Assembly (NCBI RefSeq): GCF_000223905.1
Contig: NC_015948.1
Coordinates: forward strand, 2,232,001 to 2,296,000
Length of the DNA: 64,000 bases
Direction of reading: 5' to 3'
DNA from: Haloarcula hispanica ATCC 33960
Lineage (GTDB): Archaea > Halobacteriota > Halobacteria > Halobacteriales > Haloarculaceae
Made by a program: the position numbers and the translations under genes. Shown here piece by piece: positions 41,573-58,268 of the stretch (the stretch's first letter is position 1; each line of letters opens with the position of its first letter). Below the pieces are notes generated by a model. The model saw only the letters and a list, made by a program, of their open reading frames with translations. It had not been told where the DNA came from and did not search any database.

Positions 41573-44248
41573 TCAGGCCAGTTCTGCGACCGTCGCTTCG
41601 ACCTGCTCGACCCGTGAGCGGTTGGTCGTGGCGTCTTTCTCAACGCGGACGAGGTCGTCCGCCGCACCGACCAGTTCTTCGTCGTGGCTGACCACGAGAA
41701 TCTGCTCGACGCCGACCTCATCGCGCATGTACTCCACGAGGTCAAGCAGTTGCGTGACGTGGCCCGAGTCCAGAAACACCGTCGGCTCGTCGAGGATGAG
41801 CGGGGGCATCGGCGCTGCGCCTTCGATACCCTCCGCGAGCAACCGGTAGATGGCACACCGCAGGCTGAGGTTGAACAGCGCCCGCTCGCCGCCGGAGAGC
41901 TGTTCGGGCTCCAGCGGCTCGCCGTCCTTTTGATACACCGTCAGCTGGTACTGCCCGTCGAGTTCGATGTGGGAATAGGAATCGTTCTGATACACCAGAT
42001 CGAACGTCTGATTGAGCATCCGTTCGAGCGTTTCGACGTTGCGCTGGCGCAGTTCCGCCCGAAGTGTGCCGTACATTTCCTGTAGTTCCTCTGTCTCCTC
42101 GTACAGCGTTTCGAGTTTCTCTAGGGTCGCTTCGAGGTCCTCGCGGCGCTCCCGTAGCGACTCCAGCTCCTCGATCTCGTTTGTGACGCCGCCGATGGCG
42201 TTCTGGAGTTCGTCGCGCTTTTCGCGTTTCTCCGCCAGTGCTTCCTCGGCCTGCTCGATGTACTTTTTCGCGCGCTGCTTCTCACTTCTCGCTTCTTCGA
42301 TACGGTCCTCGTCGAACGACTCAGCCAGGTCCTGCTTGCGCTCGCGCTTCTCCGCGAGCTGTTCGCGGCGCTGGTCGTTCAGTTCGGCTTGCTGACTGCG
42401 CTTCTCGCGCAGGCGCTCGATGTCGTCGTCGCAGTCGTCGATGTTCCCAAGGAGGTCTTCGACCCGCTCTAGGCGCTCAATTGACTGCTTGACCTGCTGG
42501 CGCTCCTGGTTGCATTCGGCGACGACCGAACGGCAGTCCTCGGCCTGTTCGCGGGCCTCGGCCGCCTTCTCGCGTTTCGTCTCGGCCTCGGACTCGTGGT
42601 CCGCTGCTTCCTTGCGAAGCGTCTCGATGCGCTCCTGATCCGCGTCCAGCCCGTTCTCCTTCTCCTCGACGAGTTGGACGATATTCGAGCGGTTGTTTTC
42701 GAGCGTCGATAGCTCGTCGGCAGTCTCGACCAGCGCTTTCGCCGTCTCGTGTTTCGACTCTAGGGCTTCGACGTCCTCGCGGGCGTCGGTAAGCGTGGCC
42801 TCCAGCTCCGATATCCGCTCGCGGTCGTCCTCGATGGAGTCGACGTGGGGCGACTCGGCCACGTCCTGCCCGCATTCGGGGCACTTGCCGGCCTCCAGCA
42901 GCGCCTCGGCTTCTTCGAGTGACTCCCGCTCGTTCTTTAGCTTCGTCTCCAGTTCGGTTACCCGCTTCCGGGCCTCTTCGAGGTCACTGGCGACGGATTC
43001 CTTGTACGACTGTGCCTCCTCGCGGCTGGTCGGCCCATTCTCGAACTCGGCTTCGAGGTCAGCGGTCTGGTCATCGATGTCGCTGATCTGTTCGCGGCGC
43101 TCGGCGATGGTCTCCCGCGCCGCTTCGAGATCGGCTTCCAGTTCGTCGGCCTCCTCGCGCTTGTCCTCGGCCCGCGATTCGAGGTCGGTGGCGCTCTCGG
43201 CCAGCGCGTCGGCGGTGCTGCTGTGTTCCTTCGCGTCCACGCGCTGGTCCTCGATTCGGCTCTGCAGGTCGTCGTCGCGGGACTGCAGTTCGTCGAGTCG
43301 CGCGTCGACGGTGTCCGGGTCCGGCTCTGCGCTGTCGAGGTCTGTTTCGGCCACCGTTTCCGAGAGCTCCTCCCGTAGCGACTCCCGGTGGTCCTGCAGG
43401 TCGCTGATCTGCTCTTTGAGCTCGGTTCGTTCCGTCTCCGTCTCGGTGATAGTCGCTTCCAGATCCTCGATGTCGGCTTCGAGGGTCGACAGTTCGTCGC
43501 GTTTCTCTTCGTACTCTTCGAGGACGGACTCGGCCTGGGTGAGCGTCTCCTCGGCGGTGGCCTTCTGGTCCTCGATGTGCTCGATCTCGTCCTGCAGATT
43601 GGATTCCTGCGTTTCCAAACTGTTCAGGCGCTCGTGAAGCTCTTTCTCCTCTTTCTCCTGAATCTGCTCGTCGAGTTGTGAGAGTGCCCCCTGTTTGTCA
43701 TCGCGCACGCGGCCGACGCCGACGCGGGCATCGCTGGCCCGCTCGCGGTACGCCTCCAGTTTCCCGAGTTGCAGGAGGTCGTCGAGCATATCCTGCCGGT
43801 CGCCGGGGGAGGCGTTGATGAGTTTGTTCACCTCGCCCTGACGGACGTAGGCGCAGTTGACGAACGCCTCGCTGTCCATCCGCAGGAGTTCCGTAACGCG
43901 TCGGCGCACATCGCGCGCGCCTTCGTAGTTCCCCTCGGGCGTCTCCAGAACGCATTTCGCCGTTGTCGGCTGCGCTCCGGTCGCGCGGACCCGGCGCGTG
44001 AGGTGGTAGTCGCCGCCGGCGTGGGAGAACCACAGTTCGACAGTACAGTCGTCGGCCCCGATGGTGACCACGTCACCGAGGTTTTCGTCCAGCGCTTTCG
44101 AGCCGTACAGCGCGAAGAAACAGGCCTCCAGCAGGGAGGACTTCCCGCTCCCGTTGAGCCCGTGGATGACGGTCACGCCGTTGTCCAGTCGCAGGTCAGC
44201 ATCGTCGTAGCACTTGAAGTTGGATAGTTTGACGCGTTCGAATTTCAT
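41573..44248 (-). CDS. rad50: DNA double-strand break repair ATPase Rad50
   Basis: 891 residues: N-terminal ABC half with Walker [10 protein letters not shown] (30-38), long antiparallel coiled coil, zinc hook CPEC (Cys456 and Cys459) at its apex, and C-terminal half with signature [14 protein letters not shown], Walker [14 protein letters not shown] and D/H loops. It clamps DNA ends together with Mre11, whose gene lies just upstream. ATG 44248 begins the canonical [14 protein letters not shown], preceded by GGAGGG at 44255-44260; an in-frame start 45 bases further upstream would lie inside mre11. The neighbouring polB and small genes make this a replication/repair region. Confidence 0.96.
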
Positions 44249-44254
44249 TGTCGA

Positions 44255-44260
44255 CCCTCC
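44255..44260 (-). promoter_or_regulatory. Shine-Dalgarno of rad50
   Basis: Minus-strand GGAGGG ends 6 bases before the rad50 ATG, in the 13-base gap after mre11, indicating translation from the shared mre11-rad50 message. Confidence 0.65.
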
Positions 44261-44261
44261 A

Positions 44262-45518
44262 TTAAAGGAACTCCTCGACGCTCGCCTGGCCATCGTCGTC
44301 TGTGCCGTCGGCCTCGTTCACCGCCGCTCCGTCTTCAGTATCGTCCTCGTCCGTGCTTGCGGCCGCATCTGTGCTGTCTGCTCCATCGCTCGCGGCCGTC
44401 TCAGCGTCGGCTGCGAGGGCGTCTGAACCCTTAGAGAGCAGTTCACGAACGTGCCGTTCGACCTCGTCTTTGACGTTCGCATCGGCGACCTTCGAGGCGC
44501 GAATGGTCTCGTCGATGTCGTGGGCGGCCTCACTCAGTCCGAGGTCGCGGACGCGCTCGGTGACGGCGTCGTCGGGGTCGGCGAAGCTGATATCCGTTTC
44601 TTGCTCCTCGGCCGTGATTTCCCGGTGGTCGGTGACGCGAGCCACGAGCGCCCCTCGGTCAAGCGCGAACGATTCGACGCTGGCTGGGGTCACTGGGTCG
44701 CCGTCGCCGCTGATAGAGACGATGACGACGGCGTCCTCCAGGTCGTGCTGGCCGACGCGGCTCCGGACCCGTTCGACACCCTCTTCGGGGCCGAGGTCAA
44801 CGTCGACGAAGACGAACTCGCGGGTGTCGAGGCCGCGGCGAGTGATACGGACCTCATCGTCGAAGGTGACGATATTGTAGCCGCGGTCCTCTCGTTCACT
44901 CGCGCTCGCGCGCTCGGTCGACCCGCAGTAGGTGACCCAGGCGTCCTCGACCTGCTGTTTGCCGGGGTCGTGGTTGTCGCCGAGCAACATCGCGTCGAAG
45001 GTCACCGACGACTCGGCCAGGATTTCTTCGGCGTCCCAGTCGCCGTAGTCGAAGGGCTGGAACAGGCCGTGAGTGACCAGCGCGGCGCTGTCGGCGTCGT
45101 GGGCGGCGAAGTCATAGTCGAGGTCGTCGCGCTGCGAGCGCGGGACGAAATCGAGGCCGTAGAAGGCGGTGTCGCCGACGACCGTCGGCTCGTCGTCGAG
45201 CCGCGTCGCCAAGCCCAGCGACTCGTACAAATCGAGCCACTGGGCGTCCCGTTTGGCTTCATGGTTACCCACGACGGCGAGAAACGGAACATCGGCTTCG
45301 GAGAGTTCTTCGAGAACGGTCAGCGTGCCCATGATATCAGCCAGCGCCGGACGGCGGTCGTGGAACAGGTCACCGGCGTGGACGACGGCGTCGGCGTCGT
45401 CCGCGATGGCGTCTCGGACCACCTGCCGGAACGCATCGAGGAAGTCGTCCCGTCGGTCGGGGACGTTGTACTGCTGATACCCGACGTGGGTATCGCCGGT
45501 GTGTATCACCCGTGTCAT
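44262..45518 (-). CDS. mre11: DNA double-strand break repair nuclease Mre11
   Basis: 418-residue metallophosphatase-type nuclease. Phosphoesterase motifs are complete: [28 protein letters not shown] and GDNHD. A capping domain follows (about 220-310), then the Rad50-binding region and an acidic, low-complexity tail of Ala/Ser/Thr/Asp. The last eight residues, QASVEEFL (411-418), resemble a PCNA-interacting box. mre11 precedes rad50 in one operon, as in other haloarchaea. No truncation. Confidence 0.95.
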
Positions 45519-46146: not shown

Positions 46147-46269
46147 ATGTCTCTACGCGCACTCCGATCCGACGACAACGCGCTCTCCCCGGTCACAATC
46201 GTCGCGCTACTGATTCTGGCAACCCTGCTCATTTCCGTCGTCCTCGCGCTGTTCATCCTCGGCGGGTGA
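46147..46269 (+). CDS. 40-residue minimal type IV pilin-like peptide
   Basis: The frame encodes 40 residues: a basic/polar start MSLRALRSDDNA followed by LSPVTIVALLILATLLISVV and a final hydrophobic stretch ending FILGG. This is the class III signal plus H-domain of haloarchaeal pilins/archaellins (consensus around A-V-S-P-V followed by about 20 hydrophobic residues), with no globular head. PibD-type peptidase would be expected to cut before the hydrophobic part. It opens the cluster that contains a pilus-type ATPase and platform. It is too short for most gene finders. A stand-alone small membrane peptide is the alternative. Confidence 0.6.
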   Translation: MSLRALRSDDNALSPVTIVALLILATLLISVVLALFILGG

Positions 46270-46360
46270 GGCGGGACGAGCACTTGCTGGCAGCAGCCGG
46301 TACGCTTCCCGCAGTCCCCCGTCCGAGCATTCAAATACTAACACGCGACCAGGGACGGGC

Positions 46361-46873
46361 ATGACAGATATCGAGACGCTGGCCGAACGGCTCCGCACGG
46401 TCGAACGCGCGGTCACGGACGGAACGACTGAGTTCCCGGAGGTGACGGAACTCGCTGAGTTGGAAAGCCGCGTGGACTCCGTTGAGCAGCGAATCGACGA
46501 CATCGACGAGCGGACGGCGGAGCTCGAAGCCGCCACGCAGGCCCTCCGCGGCTACGTGGGGAACATCCGCGCGGTCAACGAAGATGTCGAGCAACGCGCC
46601 GACGCGGCGCTGGCGGCGACCGACCGACTGGAAGTCCGACTCGACGAGGAACTGGCATCGCCGTCGGCATCTGACCCATCAGCGGCGGGGACCGACCAGT
46701 TACGGGCGGAGGCGGTACAAGGCCATCCAGGCTTGTCGGATAGCGGCGAGCACACAGAAGCGAACGCCACGACCGGGAAACCGACCGATTTCTCCGCCAT
46801 CACCGACGGCGGTGATCCCGACGACGAGACCACTGACGCGGGCGTTATCGGACGTATCCGTGCGCTGCTGTGA
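46361..46873 (+). CDS. Coiled-coil protein of the pilus-like cluster
   Basis: 170 residues. Residues about 1-100 form a coiled coil (LAERLRTVERAVTDG, LAELESRVDSVEQRIDDIDE, VEQRADAALAATDRLEVRLD); the rest is an unstructured Ser/Thr/Asp/Gly-rich linker ending GVIGRIRALL. No signal peptide, so it is probably cytoplasmic and may associate with the ATPase. Its stop overlaps the GTG of the next gene (GTGA). Function is not known to me. Confidence 0.72.
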   Translation: MTDIETLAERLRTVERAVTDGTTEFPEVTELAELESRVDSVEQRIDDIDERTAELEAATQALRGYVGNIRAVNEDVEQRADAALAATDRLEVRLDEELASPSASDPSAAGTDQLRAEAVQGHPGLSDSGEHTEANATTGKPTDFSAITDGGDPDDETTDAGVIGRIRALL

Positions 46874-47343
46874 TATACCGGCTGGTTCTCGCCGTCGCGG
46901 TCATGACCGCACTTGTCGGTGCAACAGCGCCAGCGCTATCGACGGCCCGAGCAGACGCAGCCAGTGGTGCCATGGAGCGTCAACTGGACGAACTGGGGGC
47001 CGAATTGACCACTTTAGTCGAGACTGACGACGCGACGGCGAACGGCGACGCGCGGCGTGCAGTGGAGATACGACTCCCCCCGCGGAGCTACACGAACGCC
47101 GGCGTCAGTCGACTGCAGTTCGCCGAGCGGGCCGGTGTTGGCGTCGCGACCTGGACAGTCGAGTCCCGGAAGCGGACCGAGCGGCTGGTCGGTATCCCGA
47201 TCCAAACGACGGCGTCGACCGACCGGCTCGACGAACCCGGTACACATCGACTCGTGTTCGTCTTGACGCGGTCGGACAGCCAGCGGGTGCTGCGGGTCCA
47301 TCGGTTTAAGTCCGAAGCCGCGGCGAGGAACGACCATGCGTGA
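46870..47343 (+). CDS. Exported protein with N-terminal hydrophobic helix
   Basis: 157 residues starting at GTG. A hydrophobic N-terminus (IYRLVLAVAVMTALVGATA) is a signal peptide or pilin-like anchor; the rest is a beta-rich domain (VEIRLPPRSYTNAGVSRLQF, THRLVFVLTRSDSQRVLRVH). It overlaps both neighbours: 4 bases with the previous gene and 8 bases with the ATPase gene, indicating translational coupling. It may be a pseudopilin-like or assembly component. No recognised family with known function. Confidence 0.72.
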   Translation: MIYRLVLAVAVMTALVGATAPALSTARADAASGAMERQLDELGAELTTLVETDDATANGDARRAVEIRLPPRSYTNAGVSRLQFAERAGVGVATWTVESRKRTERLVGIPIQTTASTDRLDEPGTHRLVFVLTRSDSQRVLRVHRFKSEAAARNDHA

Positions 47344-49195
47344 GTGGCTCTTCGGGTCATCGGCGTCGGACTGCCGCTGTGAAACGGCAATCGAGGGTGA
47401 GCGGCTGGTAGTGACGGCGGACCAGTGTCCGGTCGGTGGTGACCTCGCCGCGTCGGCTGACTGCCGGGCGACGGTCGTCGATTCGCTCTCGTTGACCGGT
47501 ATCGATACCGTCGTCACGGAGCAAGCAGGACAGGAGCGAGTGTACGTCGACCGGGCGGCGGCGGTACTCACCGCGGCTGGCCGGTTCGCGACCAGAGTCG
47601 CCTCGCTGGACGACCGCCTCGCAGACCGCGCTCGCCGGGACCCCGTCGCTGCCGCCGCGGAGGCAGTCGGCCGAGCGGGGCCGGTCGCTGACCTGGCGGC
47701 GGAGACCGGGTTGGCGGTCGCCACAGAAGGCTTCGATACCAGCGAGCAGGCGCTCACTGCATACACTGGGCCAACGATTAGCGACGCCCGCGTCGGCGCA
47801 GCGCCGCCGGCGGCTGCGGCTCTCCGGGACCAGCAAACGCTCCCGACAGAGGCCGTCGTTCGGCGATACGACACGCGCAGCGACCACCTGCCGATGTATC
47901 ATATCGAGCCCCGCGAACAGCGGTTCGACGCGGACACGATGGAGACGCTCGTCGAAGCGTACGGGCGAGTCGCCACCGCTGCCGCTGACGGCGGCTGTCA
48001 CCCGTACGACGCAGCTACCGCGGTGGCCGGCGACAGTACGACGGCAACCGCTGTCGGTGCCGTGCTGGAGAAACACACGGGCGGGCTCGGGATTCTGGAA
48101 GATATCTTCGCCGATCAGCGGGTGTCCGACGTGTTCGCGACAGCCCCAGTGAGTGATACCCGGCTCCGAGTGCGTTGTGACGGCGAGACGATGCGAACGA
48201 ATGTCCGCCTGACGCCGGCGGGCGCGAACACGCTGGCGTCGACGTTCAGACGGTCGAGCGGCCGGGCGTTCTCGCGAGCGAGCCCGACGCTCGATGCAAC
48301 GGCGACGGTGGCTGACCGACAGATTCGCGTCGCTGGCGTGAGCGAACCGGTCAGCGACGGCCTCGCCTTCGCCTTTCGCGCCCACGACAGCGACGTGTGG
48401 CGACTGGCCGACTTCGTCGACAACGGGACGATGCCGACAGCCGTCGCCGGGCTGCTCTCCGTCGCCGCGGAGCGCGGCGGGGCCTGCCTCGTCGCCGGCC
48501 CCCGCGGTGCGGGCAAGACGACGACACTCGGGGCGTTGCTCTGGGAACTCCCCCACGAGGTCCGGACGCTACTCATCGAGGACACGCCCGAACTGCCGGC
48601 GTCGTCACTGCAGTCCGACGGCCGGGACGTACAGGCGCTTCGGACCGCCAGCGGAGAGGGGCCGTCGGTCGACGCCACGGAAGCCCTGCGGACCGCGCTC
48701 CGGCTCGGCGAGGGCGCGCTCGCCGTTGGGGAGGTCCGCGGCGAGGAGGCCAGCGTTCTCTACGAGGCGATGCGTGTCGGTGGCGGCGACGGGGCCGTCC
48801 TCGGGACGATTCACGGCAACGGCCCCGAAGCGGTTCGGGAACGGCTGGTGTCTGACCTCGGCGTCCCGGTGCAGTCGTTCGCTGCGACGGACCTCGTGGT
48901 GACGCTGGCTCCGCCCGCGTCGGAGCACGGCCGCGGCATCGCATCTGTCGCGGAAATCGTCTCCCACGGCGACGACGTTTCTTTCGAGATGCTCTATGAG
49001 CGCAATGGGCCGACAGCGACAGCCACCGGTCGCTTAGAGCGGGGTAGCAGCCGTCTGGTGGAGTCGCTCGCCGCACCCGGCGAGTCCTATGCTGAGGTAC
49101 GCGACACTATCGAGGCGCGAACCGAACGATTCGAGGAGTCAGTGGCTGTCGAGACACGCGGGAACGAACCGCCCACAGACGAGGCCCAGCCGTGA
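47336..49195 (+). CDS. Type II/IV secretion (pilus assembly) ATPase, TadA/PilB-like
   Basis: 619 residues. The N-terminal about 340 residues are a haloarchaeal extension and N2-type domain (ILEDIFADQRVSDVFATAPV, RVRCDGETMRTNVRL). The ATPase core has Walker A AGPRGAGKTTT (Lys394), the Asp box LLIEDTPELP, Walker B EGALAVGEVRGEEA and the His box GTIHGNGPEAVRERL, all diagnostic of the GspE/TadA/VirB11 superfamily. It should power assembly of pilin-like subunits via the membrane platform encoded next (GTGA overlap). No retraction ATPase is present. Confidence 0.9.
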   Translation: MREWLFGSSASDCRCETAIEGERLVVTADQCPVGGDLAASADCRATVVDSLSLTGIDTVVTEQAGQERVYVDRAAAVLTAAGRFATRVASLDDRLADRARRDPVAAAAEAVGRAGPVADLAAETGLAVATEGFDTSEQALTAYTGPTISDARVGAAPPAAAALRDQQTLPTEAVVRRYDTRSDHLPMYHIEPREQRFDADTMETLVEAYGRVATAAADGGCHPYDAATAVAGDSTTATAVGAVLEKHTGGLGILEDIFADQRVSDVFATAPVSDTRLRVRCDGETMRTNVRLTPAGANTLASTFRRSSGRAFSRASPTLDATATVADRQIRVAGVSEPVSDGLAFAFRAHDSDVWRLADFVDNGTMPTAVAGLLSVAAERGGACLVAGPRGAGKTTTLGALLWELPHEVRTLLIEDTPELPASSLQSDGRDVQALRTASGEGPSVDATEALRTALRLGEGALAVGEVRGEEASVLYEAMRVGGGDGAVLGTIHGNGPEAVRERLVSDLGVPVQSFAATDLVVTLAPPASEHGRGIASVAEIVSHGDDVSFEMLYERNGPTATATGRLERGSSRLVESLAAPGESYAEVRDTIEARTERFEESVAVETRGNEPPTDEAQP

Positions 49196-50937
49196 GACAC
49201 GCCAGCGGTTCAGACGACTCCGGCGACAGCGCGAGCACGGCACCAGCCGCACCGCTCACAACCGCGGTCGGTGCGACCTATCCTGACACTATCGAGGTAC
49301 CAGACGACTACCGGCGAGCGTGTCGGCTGCTCTCGGTTTCGGCCCCGCCTGAAGCACTGCTGACGGCGAGCTACGCCGTTTCGGTGTGTGGCTCCCTGCT
49401 CGCACTGCTCGCCGCTGTGACGGTGACCGGACTGCTGGCGACGACTGTCAGCCTCGGACTCCTTGCTCTGTCCCTGAGCGTCGCGGCGCTGGGACGGTAC
49501 GGCGTGCCGTTCGCCGCCGAAGCAAAGCGGATTCGAGCGCTGGGGACCGCGCCGTCGCTCGTCACGACACTGGTGCTCGGCGCAACGCTGTGGCCCAGTG
49601 CTGAGCGGGCGGCGGCGTTCGCCGGACGGGCCGGAAACGGCCTGCTCGCCACACGGCTGCAACACCATCGACAGCGAGCCGCGGGCACGCCACGGAGCGG
49701 TCTGGGAACGTTCGCGGCGGCCTGGAGCGACCGGTTCCCGGCGCTCGAACGCGCAGTCGGACTGGTCGAGAACGCGACGGCGGCCCCAGCCGAGGAACGG
49801 CCCGAGGTCCTCGAACGCGCGCGGCGATGCATCCTCGACGGGACGCGCGACGAGATGGCGGCCTTCGCGGCCTCGCTCCGCGGCCCAGCGACCGGCCTGT
49901 ACGCGTTCGGTGTGCTCCTACCGCTGGCGATGGCGTCGCTGTTGCCCGCCGCCGCTGCCGCGGGTGTGCCAGTGACCGCCCCTGTGCTGGTCGGGACCTA
50001 CGTCGTGGTCTTGCCCGGCGCACTGTTGGTCGCCTGTTGCTGGCTCCTGGGCCGGCGACCGGTCGCGTTCCCGCCGGCGACAATCCCGCGAAGCCACCCG
50101 GACGTGCCGGCATCGGCACTCCCGTCAGTTGTGGTCGGCATCGTCGCCGGAATCGGGGGGTGGCTCCTTGCCGGCGCGCTCGTCGCTGCGTGGGCGTCTC
50201 CTATCGGGGCACTCGGGGCCGGCGTCGGGAGCGCGCTCGTCAGCTACTACCGACCCGTCGCCGAGGTCCGGGCCCGTGTCACCGACATCGAAGCGGGCCT
50301 CCCCGACACGCTGTCTGCCGTCGGTCGACGGCTGGGCCGCGGCCAGTCAGTCGAAGCCGCGCTCGTCGAGGCTGTCGACGAGACTCCCGAACCGACCAGC
50401 GCCGTCATCGAAGCCGCCGTCGCGCGTCAGGAGCGTCTCGGCACCAGTGTCGAGGGGGCGTTTCTGGGTCCCGGCGGCGCGCTCGCTGATGTTCCGAGCC
50501 ATCGGGCCCGTCGGGTGGCGACACTGCTGGATACAGCCGCAACAATCGGGCCACCAGCGGGACCGTCAGTGACGACGATGGGTGAGCATCTGGATGCGCT
50601 CCGCACCATCGAGCGTGAGACGCGTCGTGACCTCTCGCAAATAACCGAAACGCTGTCGAACACGGCCGCGCTGTTCGGTCCGCTGATCGGCGGCGCGACG
50701 GTTGCGCTGGCCGGGTCGATGGGCGGCGGCGAGCAGTTCAGCACTATTTCGAGCGCGCTGCTGGGCCCGGTCGTCGGCTGGTACGTTCTCGTCCTGGCTG
50801 TCCTGTTGACGGCGCTGTCGACGGGCCTGCACCGGGGCCTCGACCGGGCGCTCGTCGGCTACCGAACCGGTCTGGCGCTCCTGTCGGCCACGGCCACCTT
50901 CCTCGTCGCCGTGGTCGCTACCGGGCTGCTGGTCTGA
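49192..50937 (+). CDS. TadB/C-like pilus platform membrane protein
   Basis: 581 residues, polytopic. Hydrophobic clusters around 65-110, 225-290, 305-345 and 530-580 enclose two copies of the T2SS-F-type cytoplasmic domain; the second shows VRARVTDIEAGLPDTLSAVG and RLGRGQSVEAALVEAVDE. As platform protein of a type IV pilus-like machine it would couple ATPase movement to subunit extraction. Its GTG start overlaps the ATPase stop. The archaeal PilC-type double F domain is usual for haloarchaeal pili. A TATA box lies directly after it. Confidence 0.85.
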   Translation: MRHASGSDDSGDSASTAPAAPLTTAVGATYPDTIEVPDDYRRACRLLSVSAPPEALLTASYAVSVCGSLLALLAAVTVTGLLATTVSLGLLALSLSVAALGRYGVPFAAEAKRIRALGTAPSLVTTLVLGATLWPSAERAAAFAGRAGNGLLATRLQHHRQRAAGTPRSGLGTFAAAWSDRFPALERAVGLVENATAAPAEERPEVLERARRCILDGTRDEMAAFAASLRGPATGLYAFGVLLPLAMASLLPAAAAAGVPVTAPVLVGTYVVVLPGALLVACCWLLGRRPVAFPPATIPRSHPDVPASALPSVVVGIVAGIGGWLLAGALVAAWASPIGALGAGVGSALVSYYRPVAEVRARVTDIEAGLPDTLSAVGRRLGRGQSVEAALVEAVDETPEPTSAVIEAAVARQERLGTSVEGAFLGPGGALADVPSHRARRVATLLDTAATIGPPAGPSVTTMGEHLDALRTIERETRRDLSQITETLSNTAALFGPLIGGATVALAGSMGGGEQFSTISSALLGPVVGWYVLVLAVLLTALSTGLHRGLDRALVGYRTGLALLSATATFLVAVVATGLLV

Positions 50938-50940
50938 GTG

Positions 50941-50948
50941 TTTAAATC
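50941..50948 (+). promoter_or_regulatory. Internal TATA box in the pilus-like cluster
   Basis: TTTAAATC lies 24-31 bases upstream of ATG 50972. It suggests that the four downstream exported-protein genes can also be transcribed separately from the ATPase and platform genes. Confidence 0.5.
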
Positions 50949-50971
50949 GGAGGCCGCGGCCAGGCCGTTCT

Positions 50972-51433
50972 ATGTTCGAGACGTACGTCGATACGCTGTA
51001 CCTCTGGGTCGGTCTGGGAACGGTGAGCGTGGCCGTTCTTGGCGTCGTCGTCGGCCTGCCGACGACCGCACCGCCGGACGCGACGGCGACAGCCGCAACT
51101 ATCGATGAGGTCACCACCAGCCCGCCCGGGTCCGTCGCACACCGACGAGTCGTCGCTACGGAGTGGCGGTTTAACGGGCGTGACCTCCGCCTTCGCAACG
51201 ACGGCGGGACAGCCACCGCACGACTGATCCGAGCGGCTGTCCCGGCGCGGACCGACCGGCTACAGGCTGTGTTGAACGGTGAGCGACCGAAGGCGGTGTA
51301 CGACTCGCCCGACGCCTTCCGTCGGGACACCCGCCAAACTCGGGCCGGTGACGACGGGTGGCGACCGGCCCCCGACCGACTGACGGTCAGGCACGTCGCC
51401 TGGGGAGGGACCGATGTCACCATCGTCGGATAG
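50972..51433 (+). CDS. Pilus-cluster exported protein A
   Basis: 153 residues. An N-terminal membrane helix (LYLWVGLGTVSVAVLGVVVGL, about 9-29) is followed by a beta-rich extracytoplasmic part containing VVATEWRFNGRDLRLRNDGG and ending TVRHVAWGGTDVTIVG. The single N-terminal helix and lack of a cut site near it resemble pilin-like or minor-pilin architecture. It overlaps the next gene by 20 bases. I believe it belongs to a named but uncharacterised haloarchaeal domain family; no function is known. Confidence 0.7.
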   Translation: MFETYVDTLYLWVGLGTVSVAVLGVVVGLPTTAPPDATATAATIDEVTTSPPGSVAHRRVVATEWRFNGRDLRLRNDGGTATARLIRAAVPARTDRLQAVLNGERPKAVYDSPDAFRRDTRQTRAGDDGWRPAPDRLTVRHVAWGGTDVTIVG

Positions 51434-51809
51434 AGCGACGACGGAGCCGCTGGCCGCACTCGTCGCCGTCTTCGCCGTCACGCTCGGCGTGGCGCTGTAC
51501 GCCGGCGTAGTAGACGAAGCATTCGGAACGCTCGACGACGACCGCAATATCGCCACCCCGACCGCCGATGCTGTGGAACAGCGGCTCTCGTCGGCCGGCA
51601 TCGTTCAGCCCGGCGCGCTCGACACCGCGCTCGATGCAGTGCCGGCGAATTACCACGGGAACGCGACCATCACGGCGACGGCTGGCGGGCGATGGAGCAG
51701 TGGCCAGAAGCCACCGAGCAGCGCCGACACCGAAACCAGAACAGTGAGCGTGCAGGTCGGGCCGGGGGCAGTCCGCCGGGGAACGCTCACCGTTCGGGTG
51801 TGGCGATGA
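51414..51809 (+). CDS. Pilus-cluster exported protein B
   Basis: 131 residues. N-terminal RATTEPLAALVAVFAVTLGV is a pilin-type segment: a Thr-Glu pair before a hydrophobic helix, as in bacterial Tad pilins and pseudopilins. Beta-rich C-terminal part (ATITATAGGRW, TRTVSVQVGPGAVRRGTLTV). Preceded by GGGGAGGGA just before its ATG within the upstream gene. Its stop overlaps the next start (ATGA). Probably a minor pilin. Confidence 0.7.
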   Translation: MSPSSDRATTEPLAALVAVFAVTLGVALYAGVVDEAFGTLDDDRNIATPTADAVEQRLSSAGIVQPGALDTALDAVPANYHGNATITATAGGRWSSGQKPPSSADTETRTVSVQVGPGAVRRGTLTVRVWR

Positions 51810-52678
51810 CCCGAGCCATGAGCGCCGTCGCCGACGTGACGGTGTTTCTTCTGCTCGTCGGTGCGGCCGCAGGGACTCTCGTGAGCGGTGTCGGGGTGGA
51901 AAAGCCGGTAGCAACCCCAAACCCTGCGGCCGAGCAAGCGTCGGCGCTGGCGACGAGCACCGCGAGCGTCGAGTACGATTTGCTCGTCCCACCGTCCGAC
52001 CGCCACAGGCCACCCGACCACGCCACGCGACGGCAGCGGACGAGTCACGGGACCGTCGCGGAACTGCTCGGTGAGGCGGCGATGAGCGGTGTCACCGTGG
52101 ACGGCGAACGGGTATCGAGCGCCGGCACGGACTTCGAGTCACGAGTCGCTGCGGCAACGCGTGACAGACTCCACAGCCGCGGGCATCGAACGTCCGTCCG
52201 TGTCACCTGGGCACCGTATCCCGGTGCGCCAGTCAGCGGCGAGTACCGTGTCGGCGACCGGCCCCCTGACAGCGTGGACGTTCGGGCGGCGACGGTAACA
52301 GTTCCGAGCGGGATGGAGGCCGTCTCGGAGCCGGCCCGTGAAGCAGCAAAGACAGGCGGCTACGACGGCGTGGCGACGGTCGTAGCTCGGAGCGTCGTCG
52401 ACGGGCTGTTCCCGCCGACACAGTCGCGGTACGCTCTCCGTGGCGACTACCCCTCGGACGTGCTGCTGGCCGCGCGGTACGAGCGCATGGCCGACCTGAC
52501 GGGGGCGAGCGTTGCCGTTGAGCAGCAATCGGCGACAGAAATGAACCGCGACCTGACCGCGGCGCTCGCCGCCCGGCTTCGGACCGACATGCGGTCGCGG
52601 TACGACTCGCCAGCGGACGCCGCCCGCGCCGTTCGAGTGAGCCGTGTCCGCGTAACTGTCAGGACGTGGTCTCCGTGA
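51806..52678 (+). CDS. Pilus-cluster exported protein C
   Basis: 290 residues starting at ATG 51806, coupled to the previous gene by ATGA. Helical anchor MSAVADVTVFLLLVGAAAGT near the N-terminus, then an Ala/Ser/Thr-rich exported domain with several Arg-rich turns. A longer in-frame start at 51692 would lie wholly inside protein B and adds a low-complexity extension, so it is rejected. The family is unknown to me; its place fits a TadE/F-like or minor pilin subunit. Confidence 0.7.
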   Translation: MTRAMSAVADVTVFLLLVGAAAGTLVSGVGVEKPVATPNPAAEQASALATSTASVEYDLLVPPSDRHRPPDHATRRQRTSHGTVAELLGEAAMSGVTVDGERVSSAGTDFESRVAAATRDRLHSRGHRTSVRVTWAPYPGAPVSGEYRVGDRPPDSVDVRAATVTVPSGMEAVSEPAREAAKTGGYDGVATVVARSVVDGLFPPTQSRYALRGDYPSDVLLAARYERMADLTGASVAVEQQSATEMNRDLTAALAARLRTDMRSRYDSPADAARAVRVSRVRVTVRTWSP

Positions 52679-55668
52679 GGGACGACACCCGCGGCCGGAT
52701 CCCGTTCGCGTTGCTCGGCGTCCTCCTTCTGGTAAGCAGCCTCACGCTGGCCCCGACGTTCGTTAGCGAGCCGGCCCCGAGCGAAACAGCCGTCGAGCGG
52801 GCGCTGAATCAGGCCACGGCGGAGACGCAGGTCGCCGTGCGGGACGGCGTCTCGACGGCCGGCCGGCAGGCGGCCGCGAACCCGGTCGTCACGCCGGCCG
52901 ATACGCCCACTGGCCGGGTGCTGAACGGCTCGACGGCGTTCCGGGACTCGCTCAGAATCCGCGCCTATCTCCGGGTTGCGGACCGACTGGAGCGCGTCAC
53001 CGGCCGAAGCGGTGACGTGACCGTGACCGCCAGTTTGCCGACGGTTTCTAACGCGAGCGACCTCCGGGCTGCGAAACGTCGCGTCTCGGTCGAACGCGCC
53101 GGGCCGAACGAGACCGCGATGCGGGCGACGGTCGAGAATATCGTTCTGACGGTTCGGCGCAACGGAGCGGTGGTCTCGACACGGCGGGTTTCGCCGACCG
53201 TCGTCGTTCCGAACCAGGCGCTCATGCTCCACGACCAGGTGTCAACCTACCAGACGCGGTTGAACAACGGTCTGGACAAGCCGGGCCTGAGCCAGCGGAT
53301 GACAGCGCGGCTGTACCCGATGGCGTGGGCGAGAGGATATGCCCAGTACGGCGGCGCAGGCGTCGAGAACGTCGTCGCGAACCGGCACGTCTCGCTGGCG
53401 ACGAACGGCGCACTGCTCGGCGTCCAGCGGTCGACCTTCGGGCGGAGTGACCCCGCCGGTCGTCGTGCTCTGACAGAGGCGACAGCGATGACGGGAATCG
53501 AAGACGTCGTTCGGGGGAGCAGGGGTTCCGCTGTCTCCAGCGACGTGCTCGATCAGGCCGACTACAAACCGGTCAGCGAGACGCCGCCGCGCCCGAAGTC
53601 CACGGCCAGTCCGAGCCCGGGGGATTCGATGACCATCGGCGTCAACGAGACGGCCGACACCGCGTTCCGGTCCGTCACCGAGCCGTCGGCGCTCAACGAA
53701 ACGCTCGAAGACGCGTACACCGTCGAGGTAGCGCTGGAAGTCGACGAGCACCGACTGGGCGGGGGGCCGCCGGGGAAGCCGGCCTCGCCGGGCAGCGAGT
53801 GGACACTAGTCGCCGACCGGACGACTACATCCGTTGAGGCGGTCGGGAACGCCAGCGGGGGTGTTGCGACGCCGGACGGCTGGCACAGATTGGAGACGTT
53901 CAGCCGGACCGTCGAGCGACAGTACACGCGGACCGCCGTCTGGCAGAACGGGTCAGTGCGTCGGCGCACGACTGTGTCGAGCACCGCGCGCTATCGCGTG
54001 ACCGTCGCCGTCGTCGGCCGCCATCACGGCCGCTCAGTGGCACCGAACCGCTCGATTCGGACCGCACACGACGCCAGCGCAAGCCCGTTGAACGGGTCGA
54101 ACCTCGCCGATGTGGAGCCGAAAGCGATGGACAGGCTCGTCGGCCACGCCGGGGGGAGAGACGAGACCGCCGAGCGAGTCGTCGACGACAGCCTGGGCCG
54201 GACGGAAGCGACGGTGACGGCCGACCGACCACCGGAACTGCACGAGTGGGTGTATCGGGACCTGATGGCTCTACGGGAGCCAATCCGCAACACGACCGTC
54301 ACCGTCGAGCGCGGACGTGTAGGGACCTTCGAGACGAATCCCCCGCGGGAACTTCGGGAGCGGGTCGCACAGCGCCGTGCCGACCTCGCGGCCGTGCCGG
54401 ACACCTACGACAGTACGGCCCAGAAGGCCCGCGCCGCGGCCCGGCTGACCTATCTGAATGCAGTGTTGACGGAGCTAGATAGGCAGGCCTCGGTTCGGGA
54501 CAGTAACCGGAAGCGAGTCGACGCACAGCTAACGGAACGCACCGAGGGGTCGCTGCGTGCCCTCCGGAAAGGATTGACGGCCCGTGAGACGCGCGTCCCC
54601 CGGTCACGCCCGGTCCCGGTCGGTCCGGCCGGTCCCGTCAGGACGCGGGTCGATACGCAAACGCCGTATCTGACGCTGGCCGAACTGAACGAGAGTCGGT
54701 ATCGCGCGCTGGACGGAAGCGAGCATCCGCTGGTGGCGCGGAACGCGAACGTGTTCACGGTCCCCTACGGCGACGCCGCCGACGCCGTCGTTGGCGGTGC
54801 GTTCGAGGGTGGCGATAGGGTGCGCCTTGCAACGGCAGCGAACGCACTCGCAGCCGCGAACGAAACCCTCGAAGACGAGTCGAGCGCCACGCTCGCTTCG
54901 GAACGTGATGCGCTCCAGCGGGAGGTGGAAGCGGCCAACGAGGAGCTGACGACGACGCTCTGGCTGGCAGTCTCCCAGCACACTGAAGCTGAACAGGGCG
55001 AGAGCAAGGCCATTGTCACTGAAGCGCTGTCGCCATGGGACACACCGGCGGCCCGAGCGCTGGCGCTGACCAACGGCTCCGCGCAGGAACGGGTCGCCCA
55101 CGTCGCCGGTGCCCGGCTGAACCTCACGCGGGTCGAACGCGACCGTCTCCGCCTGACGCTGTTCTCAGTCGACACGCCAGCGACCAGACCGACGCTGGAG
55201 TCGACAAACGGGACGGCCTCGGCGGTACGGTCCGTTGCGAAAGACGAACTGAGCAAAGCGCTGGCGAACGCAGGGGAACAGAAGGTCCAGCAGTTCGCGA
55301 AGAAGCGTCTCGGAACGGACAAACTGCCGGCTGGCCTCCCGCTGGCACCGCCGGTCACCCCCTGGTACGCGACGGCGAACATCTGGTGGGTTACCGTCAA
55401 GGGCGAGTACGCCAGGTTCGCCGTCTCTGCGAGTCACGGCCCGCCGAGGGAGCCAGGCGCACGGACCACCTATGCGCGTGACGGGCACAACGTCACGCTC
55501 GACGTGGACGACGACGGATCGACAGAGCGATTGGGTACCGCCGACCGCGTCTCGTTCAGCGCCGATACGGGCGTTGTCGTCGTGGTACCGCCCAAACCGC
55601 GCGGGGTCGGTGACAAGGGCGGGACCGCCGTGGAGGAATCGAGCGGGTGGCCGCACGCAGGTACCTGA
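52675..55668 (+). CDS. Pilus-cluster giant exported protein D (about 1000 residues)
   Basis: 997 residues from GTG 52675, which overlaps the previous stop (GTGA); GTG 52666 is an alternative adding three residues. A single N-terminal hydrophobic helix (PFALLGVLLLVSSLTLAPTF) anchors or exports it. The rest has many Asn-x-Ser/Thr sequons, helical stretches around 560-660 and 740-830 (Ala/Glu/Arg rich) and a C-terminal region VTLDVDDDGSTERLGTADRV with a Ca-binding-like DxDxDG. The size and sequons suggest a surface-exposed filament, tip or adhesin component. No homologous domain recognised. Last gene of the cluster. Confidence 0.72.
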   Translation: MRDDTRGRIPFALLGVLLLVSSLTLAPTFVSEPAPSETAVERALNQATAETQVAVRDGVSTAGRQAAANPVVTPADTPTGRVLNGSTAFRDSLRIRAYLRVADRLERVTGRSGDVTVTASLPTVSNASDLRAAKRRVSVERAGPNETAMRATVENIVLTVRRNGAVVSTRRVSPTVVVPNQALMLHDQVSTYQTRLNNGLDKPGLSQRMTARLYPMAWARGYAQYGGAGVENVVANRHVSLATNGALLGVQRSTFGRSDPAGRRALTEATAMTGIEDVVRGSRGSAVSSDVLDQADYKPVSETPPRPKSTASPSPGDSMTIGVNETADTAFRSVTEPSALNETLEDAYTVEVALEVDEHRLGGGPPGKPASPGSEWTLVADRTTTSVEAVGNASGGVATPDGWHRLETFSRTVERQYTRTAVWQNGSVRRRTTVSSTARYRVTVAVVGRHHGRSVAPNRSIRTAHDASASPLNGSNLADVEPKAMDRLVGHAGGRDETAERVVDDSLGRTEATVTADRPPELHEWVYRDLMALREPIRNTTVTVERGRVGTFETNPPRELRERVAQRRADLAAVPDTYDSTAQKARAAARLTYLNAVLTELDRQASVRDSNRKRVDAQLTERTEGSLRALRKGLTARETRVPRSRPVPVGPAGPVRTRVDTQTPYLTLAELNESRYRALDGSEHPLVARNANVFTVPYGDAADAVVGGAFEGGDRVRLATAANALAAANETLEDESSATLASERDALQREVEAANEELTTTLWLAVSQHTEAEQGESKAIVTEALSPWDTPAARALALTNGSAQERVAHVAGARLNLTRVERDRLRLTLFSVDTPATRPTLESTNGTASAVRSVAKDELSKALANAGEQKVQQFAKKRLGTDKLPAGLPLAPPVTPWYATANIWWVTVKGEYARFAVSASHGPPREPGARTTYARDGHNVTLDVDDDGSTERLGTADRVSFSADTGVVVVVPPKPRGVGDKGGTAVEESSGWPHAGT

Positions 55669-55718
55669 CCCCGGGCCGCATAACGGAAGTGAAATACCCC
55701 GGGGCCATACCGACACCC

Positions 55719-56147
55719 ATGCTTCGAGGCGAGTTTCCGGACGCGGGCGAGCAGTCCCACGAGGAGTTACTGGCGGCCTACAGCACTGTGCTGGCCGAGA
55801 CAGTCGAGACAGTCGGCATCGAGGAAATCGTCGCCGAGACCGATCTCGATCAAGCGACAGTGACAGCGTTCGCCGACAGCGATATCGGCGACCGAACGCT
55901 CGATGAGGCGGTCTCGGTCCTGGCGACCCACCCGAACCGGCCGGACGCCGACGCGCTGCAGGCCGAAGCGCAGGACATCCTCCTGATGGGGATGACGACA
56001 GCCGTGATAGACGTAGAATCGCTGGCCTCCGGCATCGACGACGAACTGGAGCCGAAAGAGATCCAGCAGAAAATCGAGGGTCGCTACCCGATAACACTGG
56101 CCGAGTACGCCCTCCTGCACAGCTACATCGAGGGGGAGAAGCGGTGA
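55719..56147 (+). CDS. Haloarchaeal conserved protein, unknown
   Basis: 142 residues, acidic and helical: LRGEFPDAGEQSHEELLAAY, VIDVESLASGIDDELEPKEI and a final QQKIEGRYPITLAEYALLHS. Composition suggests a soluble cytoplasmic protein. It overlaps the next gene by 4 bases (GTGA) and is likely co-transcribed with it. An upstream in-frame ATG at 55647 is rejected because the extension (MAARRYLTPGRITEV) is basic, unlike the rest. Function unknown. Confidence 0.65.
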   Translation: MLRGEFPDAGEQSHEELLAAYSTVLAETVETVGIEEIVAETDLDQATVTAFADSDIGDRTLDEAVSVLATHPNRPDADALQAEAQDILLMGMTTAVIDVESLASGIDDELEPKEIQQKIEGRYPITLAEYALLHSYIEGEKR

Positions 56148-57034
56148 CGGAACGCGTCGCCATTCTAGGCTGTGGCTACGTCGGCTTGGAACTCGGACGG
56201 CAGTTGCGGAGCAGCCACGAGGTCGTGGGCGTTCGCCGGTCCGACGACGGCATCGCAGCTATAGAGGACGCCGGCTTCGAAGCGGTCCGCGCCGACGTGA
56301 CCGACCCCGAGTCGCTGTCGGCGGTGCCGGACGCCGACTGGCTCGTCTTCGCCGCGAGTTCCGGCGGCAGGGGAGCTGAGGCCGCCCGCGAAGTGTACGT
56401 TGAGGGACTCCGGACGGCTATCGACCACTTCTGGTCGCGGGCGGACCCGCCCGAGCGACTGGTGTACACCTCCAGCACCGGCGTCTACGGCGACCACGAC
56501 GGCGCGTGGGTCGACGAAGAGACGGGGCTGGACCCACAGACCGAGAAGACCGAGGTACTGGCCGAAGCAGAGCGCGTAGCCCGTGAGCGCCCCGTGGAAC
56601 ACGGCGGCCACGGCTCGGTCGCTCGCTTCGCCGGCCTGTACGGCCCGGACCGCTACCGACTGGAGCGGTACCTGGAGGGACCGGTGACGGCCGGCTACCT
56701 GAACATGGTCCACCGGGCCGACGCGGCCGGGGCCGTGCGCCACCTGCTGACGGGAGACCACCGGGAGGAAGTCGTGCTGGTCGTCGACGACGAACCCGTC
56801 GAGAAGTGGGCATTCGCCGACTGGCTGGCCGAACAGTGTGACGTCCCGTTCCCGCCGAAACAGACGACGGCGGAACGACTGGCCGACGACAGCCTCTCGG
56901 AGACGGCGAAGCGCCGTATTCAGACGAGCAAGCGATGCTCGAACGACCGGCTCCACGAACTGGGATACGAATTCGAGTACCCGACATTCCGGGAAGGGTA
57001 CCGCGACGCCGTCCGGGAATACCGGCAAAATTAG
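56144..57034 (+). CDS. NAD(P)-dependent epimerase/dehydratase-like SDR
   Basis: 296 residues from GTG. The N-terminal Rossmann motif is VAILGCGYVGLELGRQL (GxGxxG variant), then VFAASSGGRG and VYTSSTGVYG, with the Ser/Tyr region of extended SDRs (the S-x-GVYG pattern is typical of YeeZ/sugar-epimerase-like members). Downstream GLYGPDRYRLERYL and LNMVHRADAAGAV continue the family. It probably acts on a nucleotide sugar or thioester, but the substrate is unknown. Coupled to the upstream gene by GTGA. Confidence 0.82.
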   Translation: MTERVAILGCGYVGLELGRQLRSSHEVVGVRRSDDGIAAIEDAGFEAVRADVTDPESLSAVPDADWLVFAASSGGRGAEAAREVYVEGLRTAIDHFWSRADPPERLVYTSSTGVYGDHDGAWVDEETGLDPQTEKTEVLAEAERVARERPVEHGGHGSVARFAGLYGPDRYRLERYLEGPVTAGYLNMVHRADAAGAVRHLLTGDHREEVVLVVDDEPVEKWAFADWLAEQCDVPFPPKQTTAERLADDSLSETAKRRIQTSKRCSNDRLHELGYEFEYPTFREGYRDAVREYRQN

Positions 57035-57050
57035 CTGTATCGGGGGCGAA

Positions 57051-57058
57051 CTTTATTA
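57051..57058 (+). promoter_or_regulatory. TATA box of the DHH phosphoesterase gene
   Basis: CTTTATTA lies 26-33 bases upstream of ATG 57084. Confidence 0.55.
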
Positions 57059-57083
57059 CTGATAGGCTGGCGAACAGCGTGGT

Positions 57084-58268
57084 ATGACACGCGTTGCCGC
57101 CGGCGGACTCCAGATCGACGCCGCCGCGGCGTTCGCTAGCGAGAACCCCCTGCTGGTCGCTGGTGTCGCTGTGGTTCTTCTCGCCCTCCTCGGTGCCGGC
57201 ATCTGGTTGCGTCGGTATCTCAGCCGAACGCCCGGCGAGCGACTGCGTCGGACGCTGACCGGCTACGACCGGATCGCGGTGTTGATGCACCCGAACCCGG
57301 ACCCGGACGCGATGGCCTCCGCGCTGGCCGTCAACCAACTCGTCGCCGGCACTGATACGTCAGCGTCGTTGCTGTACCCCGGGGAGATACGCCGCCCGGA
57401 GAACCGGGCCTTCCAGACGGTGCTGGATCTGGATTTCGACCACATCGAGACTGTCGACGACATCGACGGCGAGGCAGTCGTCCTCGTCGACCACAACACG
57501 GCACGCGGCTTCCCCGGTGCCGAAGAGATAGAACCGGTCGCCGTCATCGACCACCATCCCGGCAACGGCAGCGGGGACGAGTTCACGGACATCCGGTCCG
57601 ATTACGGGGCCTGTGCGACCATCTTCGCGAGCTACTTCAATCAGTTGGAGTTCGAGTTCAGCGACACACAGGGGAACGGGGGTATCGATATCGACGCGTC
57701 ACCGGCAGAGACCATCCCCTGTGCGCTGGCGACGGGGCTGATGTACGGTATCCAGTCGGACACCCGGTCGCTGACCAACGGGTGTAAGTCCGAGGACTTC
57801 GCGGCTGCCGCGTACCTCTACGATGGGATGGACAGCGACCTGCTCAACCGCATCGCGAACCCGCAGGTCGACGCCGAAGTCCTCGACGTGAAATCCCGAG
57901 CCATCGGGAAACGAGAGGTGCGAGCGCCCTACGCGTTCAGTGATGTGGGCGAGGTGTCGAACACGGACGCGATTCCGCAGGCGGCGGACGAACTGGAGAC
58001 GTTAGAGGGCGTCTCGGCGGTCGTCGTTGTCGGCGAGAAGAAAGGGACCATGCGCATCGCCGGGCGCTCGCGGGACGACCGCGTCCACATCGGCCGGGCG
58101 ATAGAGGCCGTCGTCGACGATATCCCGATGGCCGAGGGCGGCGGCCACGCTCGGATGGGCGGCGGCAAGGTCCCGGTCGAGCACATGGCCGGCCTCGGCC
58201 CCAGTAACGGCGTTTCCCGGGAAGATTTCCGCGAGCGGGTGTTCGATGCGATGAGCGGCGAACTGTGA
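57084..58268 (+). CDS. Membrane-anchored DHH/DHHA1 phosphoesterase
   Basis: 394 residues. One N-terminal membrane helix (LLVAGVAVVLLALLGAGIWL, about 24-43) precedes a DHH domain with MHPNPDPDAMASA, VVLVDHN and VIDHHPG, the Mn-binding motifs of RecJ/GdpP/NrnA-type enzymes, and a DHHA1 domain ending GGGHARMGGG. Such enzymes degrade cyclic di-AMP, pApA or short oligonucleotides; with a membrane anchor but no GGDEF or PAS domain, c-di-AMP or nanoRNA cleavage are both possible. It is leaderless by TATA position. Confidence 0.85.
   Translation: MTRVAAGGLQIDAAAAFASENPLLVAGVAVVLLALLGAGIWLRRYLSRTPGERLRRTLTGYDRIAVLMHPNPDPDAMASALAVNQLVAGTDTSASLLYPGEIRRPENRAFQTVLDLDFDHIETVDDIDGEAVVLVDHNTARGFPGAEEIEPVAVIDHHPGNGSGDEFTDIRSDYGACATIFASYFNQLEFEFSDTQGNGGIDIDASPAETIPCALATGLMYGIQSDTRSLTNGCKSEDFAAAAYLYDGMDSDLLNRIANPQVDAEVLDVKSRAIGKREVRAPYAFSDVGEVSNTDAIPQAADELETLEGVSAVVVVGEKKGTMRIAGRSRDDRVHIGRAIEAVVDDIPMAEGGGHARMGGGKVPVEHMAGLGPSNGVSREDFRERVFDAMSGEL

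Follow-up and report, generated by a model that had tools for sequence, protein, structure and literature searches.

A probable type IV filament system of haloarchaea, with a conserved motor and five exported proteins, in Haloarcula hispanica

Haloarcula hispanica ATCC 33960 carries a compact cluster of genes for a pilus-like motor and a series of exported proteins, which raises the question of what kind of machine this cluster encodes and whether it has been described before. We analysed a 64,000-nucleotide stretch of the genome (NC_015948.1, positions 2,232,001 to 2,296,000; hereafter the window), in which the cluster lies at 46147-55668. The original prediction had described nine co-directional, mostly overlapping genes forming an undescribed type IV pilus-like machine. 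Translation confirmed that all nine open reading frames lie co-directionally on the + strand. The near-overlapping run, however, consists of eight genes (46361-55668, +) encoding a coiled-coil protein, a TadA/FlaI-type ATPase, a TadC-type platform and five exported proteins, with spacings from the coiled-coil gene to the last gene, DUF7286, of -4, -8, -4, +34, -20, -4 and -13 nucleotides. The ninth reading frame, for a 40-residue peptide, is detached (+91 nucleotides ahead of the coiled-coil gene). We consider it likely that this haloarchaeal locus belongs to the type IV filament superfamily and is of a kind already catalogued in silico as archaeal type IV pilus subclade 4F.

The locus encodes both a T2SSE-type assembly ATPase and a T2SSF/TadC platform, as expected of the superfamily, and together with the linked exported genes these support the predicted pilus-like character of the machine. 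The motor ATPase (47336-49195, +) belongs to the FlaI/CpaF(TadA)/afGspE type, has cysteines in its N-terminus and matched PF00437 (T2SSE) at 1.1e-18. Its nearest solved structures were Archaeoglobus GspE (2oap, 7.9e-49), CpaF (5e-37) and FlaI (1.1e-31), and residues C15, C31 and C43 were invariant in 15 aligned haloarchaeal and methanoarchaeal sequences. The membrane platform protein (49192-50937, +) gave no Pfam hit alone and was assigned to the TadC/T2SSF type through its relatives and profile comparison: T2SSF (PF00482) was found in 12 of 20 members of its family (best 2.3e-5), and its profile matched the paralogous platforms of three other loci at 5.3e-6 (hhalign). Every other operon product was named by the Pfam scan, so the earlier view that nothing beyond the ATPase and platform can be recognised does not hold. 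Upstream of these lies the gene for the cytoplasmic coiled-coil protein DUF7310 (46361-46873, +; PF23991, 3.1e-32). A prepilin peptidase is missing from the window, as had been predicted, but a single A24 peptidase was found elsewhere in the genome. CpaF/TadA acts as one motor for both extension and retraction (PMC11300603), and the lack of a PilT-like retraction ATPase is therefore unremarkable.

We then asked whether the exported genes belong with this motor. The order coiled coil, DUF7311, ATPase, platform, DUF7283, DUF7285, DUF7284, DUF7286 recurred over ten families of the order in single-sequence searches. In profile searches, all eight genes were found in order and on one strand at 69 of the 74 named loci, that is, those reaching far enough upstream, and the run is thus not a product of chance; DUF7310 was adjacent at 70 of them. 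Loci with the whole operon included those of Haloferax gibbonsii and H. prahovense, and in control searches H. volcanii matched DUF7286 and DUF7283. Of 295 Halobacteriales genomes, 212 carried DUF7286. DUF7283 was missing from all 15 tested genomes that lack DUF7286, and the ATPase profile scored 690-798 bits in six genomes, all of which carry DUF7286, against at most 196 bits in the DUF7286-less genomes, which lack this ATPase as well (full-strength cut-off, at least 690 bits). The exported genes are thus conserved with the ATPase and platform, a pattern whose absence had been named in advance as grounds for abandoning the prediction. The exceptions to co-occurrence were two methanogen-side drafts (G426, 84% complete, and G469), in which DUF7286 was weak or partial and this ATPase was missing, and three haloarchaeal genomes (G045, G181, G056) that retained only scraps of DUF7286. 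These scraps, and N-terminal pieces of the ATPase in two genomes without the full system (G005:C21, G002:C45), look like remnants and suggest losses. In a few haloarchaeal loci the exported half is split from the motor (L118, L125, L136, and G234, with L043 and L245); in G234 the ATPase lies on a separate contig from the exported genes and its reading frame contains an in-frame TGA.

Relatives of DUF7286 were also found in other families of the phylum, with Methanosarcina acetivorans positive as a control. In several methanogen-side genomes the five exported genes stand together in the same order with no ATPase nearby, and six such genomes each encode one window-type ATPase beside its platform elsewhere in the genome. 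The methanogen-side profiles matched their haloarchaeal counterparts by hhalign (DUF7311, 1.5e-7; DUF7283, 9.8e-5; DUF7285, 9e-10; DUF7284, 4.3e-11), and each of the four matched its positional counterpart only. In a tree built without crenarchaeal sequences, a single clade (100/100, stem 2.14) united the haloarchaeal and methanogen ATPases, and 30 paralogs fell outside it. The exported genes could in principle be mere neighbours of a pilus motor with no functional tie to it, and some of the gene order conserved downstream (DUF5791, epimerase, DHH) probably reflects housekeeping genes. We give this explanation almost no weight, since motor and exported set occur in the same genomes even without linkage, as in methanogens, and since both are lost together. 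For a joint function of the motor and the exported set, this co-occurrence without linkage is the strongest argument we have.

Two further observations concern the methanogen loci. At four of them (L165, L166, L170, L173) DUF7286 is followed by exported sarcinarray/MAST genes (TIGR04209, TIGR04204; archaeosortase-type substrates), which occur as tandem copies in a Methanosarcina-like genome. A divergently transcribed gene directly upstream of the module encodes a coiled-coil membrane protein (L165:8082-8582, -; L168:6070-6537, -). Its N-terminal similarity to DUF7310 was suggestive and not significant by hhalign, and it is possibly the DUF7310 counterpart.

What, then, are the five exported proteins? 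All belong to Pfam families of which the window proteins, like DUF7310, are full-length or near full-length members; the families themselves (DUF7310, DUF7311, DUF7283, DUF7285, DUF7284 and DUF7286) have no function attached, and their names were absent from the literature searched. Exported protein 1, DUF7311 (46870-47343, +; PF23993, 5.7e-30), has an N-terminal helix, and protein 2 is DUF7283 (50972-51433, +; PF23954, 4.3e-46); the haloarchaeal forms of both are without a prepilin leader. Prepilin-like motifs ahead of a hydrophobic helix were found in the other three. In DUF7285 (51414-51809, +; PF23956, 1.1e-34) the motif is usually RGQ-x-EP and was present in 33 of 41 sequences. DUF7284 (51806-52678, +; PF23955, 3.2e-92) carries RA-x-S (29 of 36); we moved its start from 51692 to 51806 because orthologs begin with this conserved N-terminus. 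DUF7286 (52666-55668, +; PF23957, 1072.6 bits), a protein of 1000 residues and the candidate tip subunit, carries R[GA]R-x-P (39 of 41). Methanogen counterparts of DUF7311 and DUF7283, inspected by eye, also show prepilin-like leaders. Comparison of the exported families with clade 2 pilins by hhalign gave weak similarity at best (DUF7285, 0.0024). AlphaFold (AF2) models of DUF7286 and DUF7284 were confident, with predicted local distance difference test (pLDDT) scores of 82.9 and 90.9, and a PDB sequence search with DUF7286 returned only noise. We call these proteins pilin-like because of their N-termini and gene company, not because of their fold.

Several observations weigh against a filament. 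A prepilin leader motif was seen in only 3 of 27 haloarchaeal DUF7311 and in none of 41 haloarchaeal DUF7283 sequences. Foldseek comparison of the DUF7286 and DUF7284 models with the PDB gave no convincing match, to a pilin or to any other protein. The operon encodes no major pilin (no Pilin_N protein); the genome has 7-8 Pilin_N pilins, all away from the operon and none assignable to it. The system is also dispensable, as 83 of the 295 Halobacteriales genomes are without DUF7286, and no filament from this locus was found in the literature searched. Some of these features would suit a non-filamentous, membrane-anchored surface complex, in which DUF7286 and its partners are simply inserted or moved by the ATPase and platform without assembling into a polymer: two of the five exported proteins are without prepilin leaders, the RA motif of DUF7284 is lost in several orthologs, and the modelled folds of DUF7286 and DUF7284 are not pilin folds. 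We nevertheless regard such a complex as improbable. The prepilin-like motifs are retained in most DUF7286, DUF7285 and DUF7284 sequences, and to our knowledge the ATPase and platform of this superfamily are found only in filament or pseudofilament systems.

The main rival is a type II secretion-like machine with no surface pilus, whose short pseudopilus would drive a substrate across the S-layer or out of it, with the small subunits and the one large protein taking the part of GspH-I-J-K. This would agree with an operon that lacks a major pilin and groups four to five pseudopilin-like genes, one of them very large, and with archaeal GspE (2oap) being the closest solved ATPase; the MAST/sarcinarray genes after methanogen DUF7286 could be cargo or partners. 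However, the haloarchaeal operon has no consistent secreted substrate gene beside it, being followed by DUF5791, an epimerase and a DHH protein, and no fold similarity of the DUF7286 and DUF7284 models to GspK or other pseudopilins was found. We therefore consider this alternative unlikely, although more plausible than the non-filamentous complex.

For a filament of the type IV superfamily, which we favour, the following mechanism can be proposed from sequence comparison. The FlaI/CpaF-type ATPase (47336-49195) would act as a hexamer on the platform protein (49192-50937), with the DUF7310 coiled coil as a cytoplasmic adaptor. PibD, the single A24 peptidase encoded elsewhere, would trim the leaders of DUF7285, DUF7284 and DUF7286, which together with the leaderless DUF7311 and DUF7283 may form a minor-pilin priming complex bearing the 1000-residue DUF7286 outermost, at the tip. 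The shaft would be built of a major pilin encoded by one of the pilin genes dispersed elsewhere in the genome, joined perhaps, in Haloarcula only, by the 40-residue headless pilin. The job of the filament may be adhesion or contact. Of this scheme, the sequences themselves establish the motor, the platform, the gene linkage, the co-occurrence and the prepilin-like motifs of three proteins. A bolder proposal, which we advance only tentatively and judge doubtful, is that haloarchaea and methanogens share a distinct class of archaeal filament or secretion machine and that the five exported proteins make up its tip or pseudopilus complex, with pilin-type tails on unseen folds of 290 and 1000 residues and with the headless pilin of Haloarcula as a shaft or spacer.

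The 40-residue peptide itself (46147-46269, +) had been predicted to be a minimal pilin and part of the system. It comprises a leader, RSDDNA, and one pilin-type hydrophobic segment followed by a stop. Its ATG, frame and H-domain were retained at 13 of 17 other Haloarcula loci, its coding identity across these loci was 80-98%, with the flanking 60 nucleotides often at 20-40%, and non-synonymous differences were fewer than synonymous ones (pN 0.109 vs pS 0.232). Judged by this pattern of constraint, the peptide is a real gene. It was not found at the equivalent place in other genera, where the best matches in the family were mostly ordinary pilins of about 140-250 residues, and we rejected it as a conserved core part because it is missing from the matching position there. 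A probable operon promoter was found at 46330-46349 (+), with a TATA-like element, TTCAAATA, at -31 and a CCA element near -14 relative to the DUF7310 start, predicting a leaderless transcript. By motif inspection only, most of 39 loci show both elements with this spacing unchanged. As they sit between the peptide and the DUF7310 gene, the operon would start after the peptide, which is thus genus-specific and probably outside the operon. A palindrome, AACGTT, occurs within 150 nucleotides upstream of the DUF7310 gene in 16 of the 39 related loci (about 0.55 expected) and not in the window; it lies mostly at -46 to -52 and is a candidate regulator site.

DUF7286 overlaps by 22 nucleotides (spacing -22) the gene for a predicted soluble DUF5791 protein (55647-56147, +; PF19104, 3.4e-45), a conserved downstream neighbour that adjoins DUF7286 in most loci. 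Most haloarchaeal loci have three genes behind DUF7286, namely DUF5791, one epimerase-like and one DHH/DHHA1 gene (55647-58268, + in the window). Just upstream of the cluster, on the opposite strand, lie Rad50-like and Mre11-like genes (41573-45518, -).

These results supply a list of parts, open to experimental test, for a pilus-like machine present in about 70% of sampled Halobacteriales genomes and in many methanogens, and give five proteins known only as DUFs a common context. The machine has been catalogued computationally; it appears to have had no experimental test in the literature, and no phenotype for it was reported in the literature searched. Knockouts are practical, given the DUF7286 and DUF7283 matches in H. 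volcanii and the whole operon in H. gibbonsii and H. prahovense, and the confident models of DUF7286 and DUF7284 that match nothing in the PDB make these proteins good targets for structural work.

How does this machine compare with known systems? The archaellum is set apart: as predicted, no FlaH, FlaJ or archaellins turned up in the scan of proteins encoded at and around the locus, and the ATPase falls outside the paralog groups. The bacterial Tad pilus (CpaF/TadA, TadB/C, Flp, TadE/F/G) shares the single-ATPase motor family and has several pseudopilins encoded behind TadC, including a large one; the window machine would work in a similar way. It differs in having both TadB and TadC where the window has one platform gene, and none of the exported proteins had a TadE, TadF or TadG Pfam match.

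Among characterised haloarchaeal pili (PilB3, PilB4 and pil-2) there was no gene-for-gene match, which would have spoken against the original prediction. The Haloferax PilB3-C3 and PilB4-C4 adhesion pili (clade 2) resemble the window system in their PilB/PilC-type motor and in that pilins may be encoded elsewhere. However, the other ATPases of the same genome (L001-L003) branch apart from the window ATPase in the tree, and from the tree position and gene context of these paralogs the PilB3 and PilB4 types would be other systems. Halobacterium salinarum pil-2 (OE1347R-OE1332R) consists of seven co-transcribed ORFs that occupy 6.9 kb from pilB2 on; it is restricted to haloarchaea and its transcript is induced in attached cells (PMC4292770). 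Like the window operon it combines an ATPase, of VirB11 type, with a multispanning membrane partner, and it has three predicted prepilins. In the window, by contrast, the stretch from the ATPase through DUF7286 alone takes up 8.3 kb, with six genes of which one is 3 kb, and pil-2 has no room for a 3-kb gene. One Halobacterium genome (G080) carries a DUF7286 locus plus a separate, distant ATPase of another clade. Identity with pil-2 was rejected on these published gene sizes and this separate ATPase; the census text files the H. salinarum locus under 4C (PMC4858521).

The closest counterpart is subclade 4F of the 2016 archaeal type IV pilus census (Makarova, Koonin and Albers; PMC4858521). Two traits describe 4F there: a variable, cysteine-rich N-terminus of the ATPase, which is prominent in methanomicrobia, and a coiled-coil protein of halobacteria, arCOG07564; the ATPase is placed within clade 4 and given a crenarchaeal origin. 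The window likewise has an ATPase whose N-terminal cysteines are common to methanogens, a TadC partner and a coiled coil at the locus, and DUF7310 would be arCOG07564, a match made by description and not by identifier. As a possible difference, that account also names for 4F an S-layer-like protein and major pilins of the PilA family (arCOG02981, arCOG10216), whereas the window operon has no Pilin_N gene. The predicted novelty of the system thus gives way to a known place: as compared by sequence, the window ATPase and coiled coil fit subclade 4F, and the exported proteins belong to existing Pfam DUF families.

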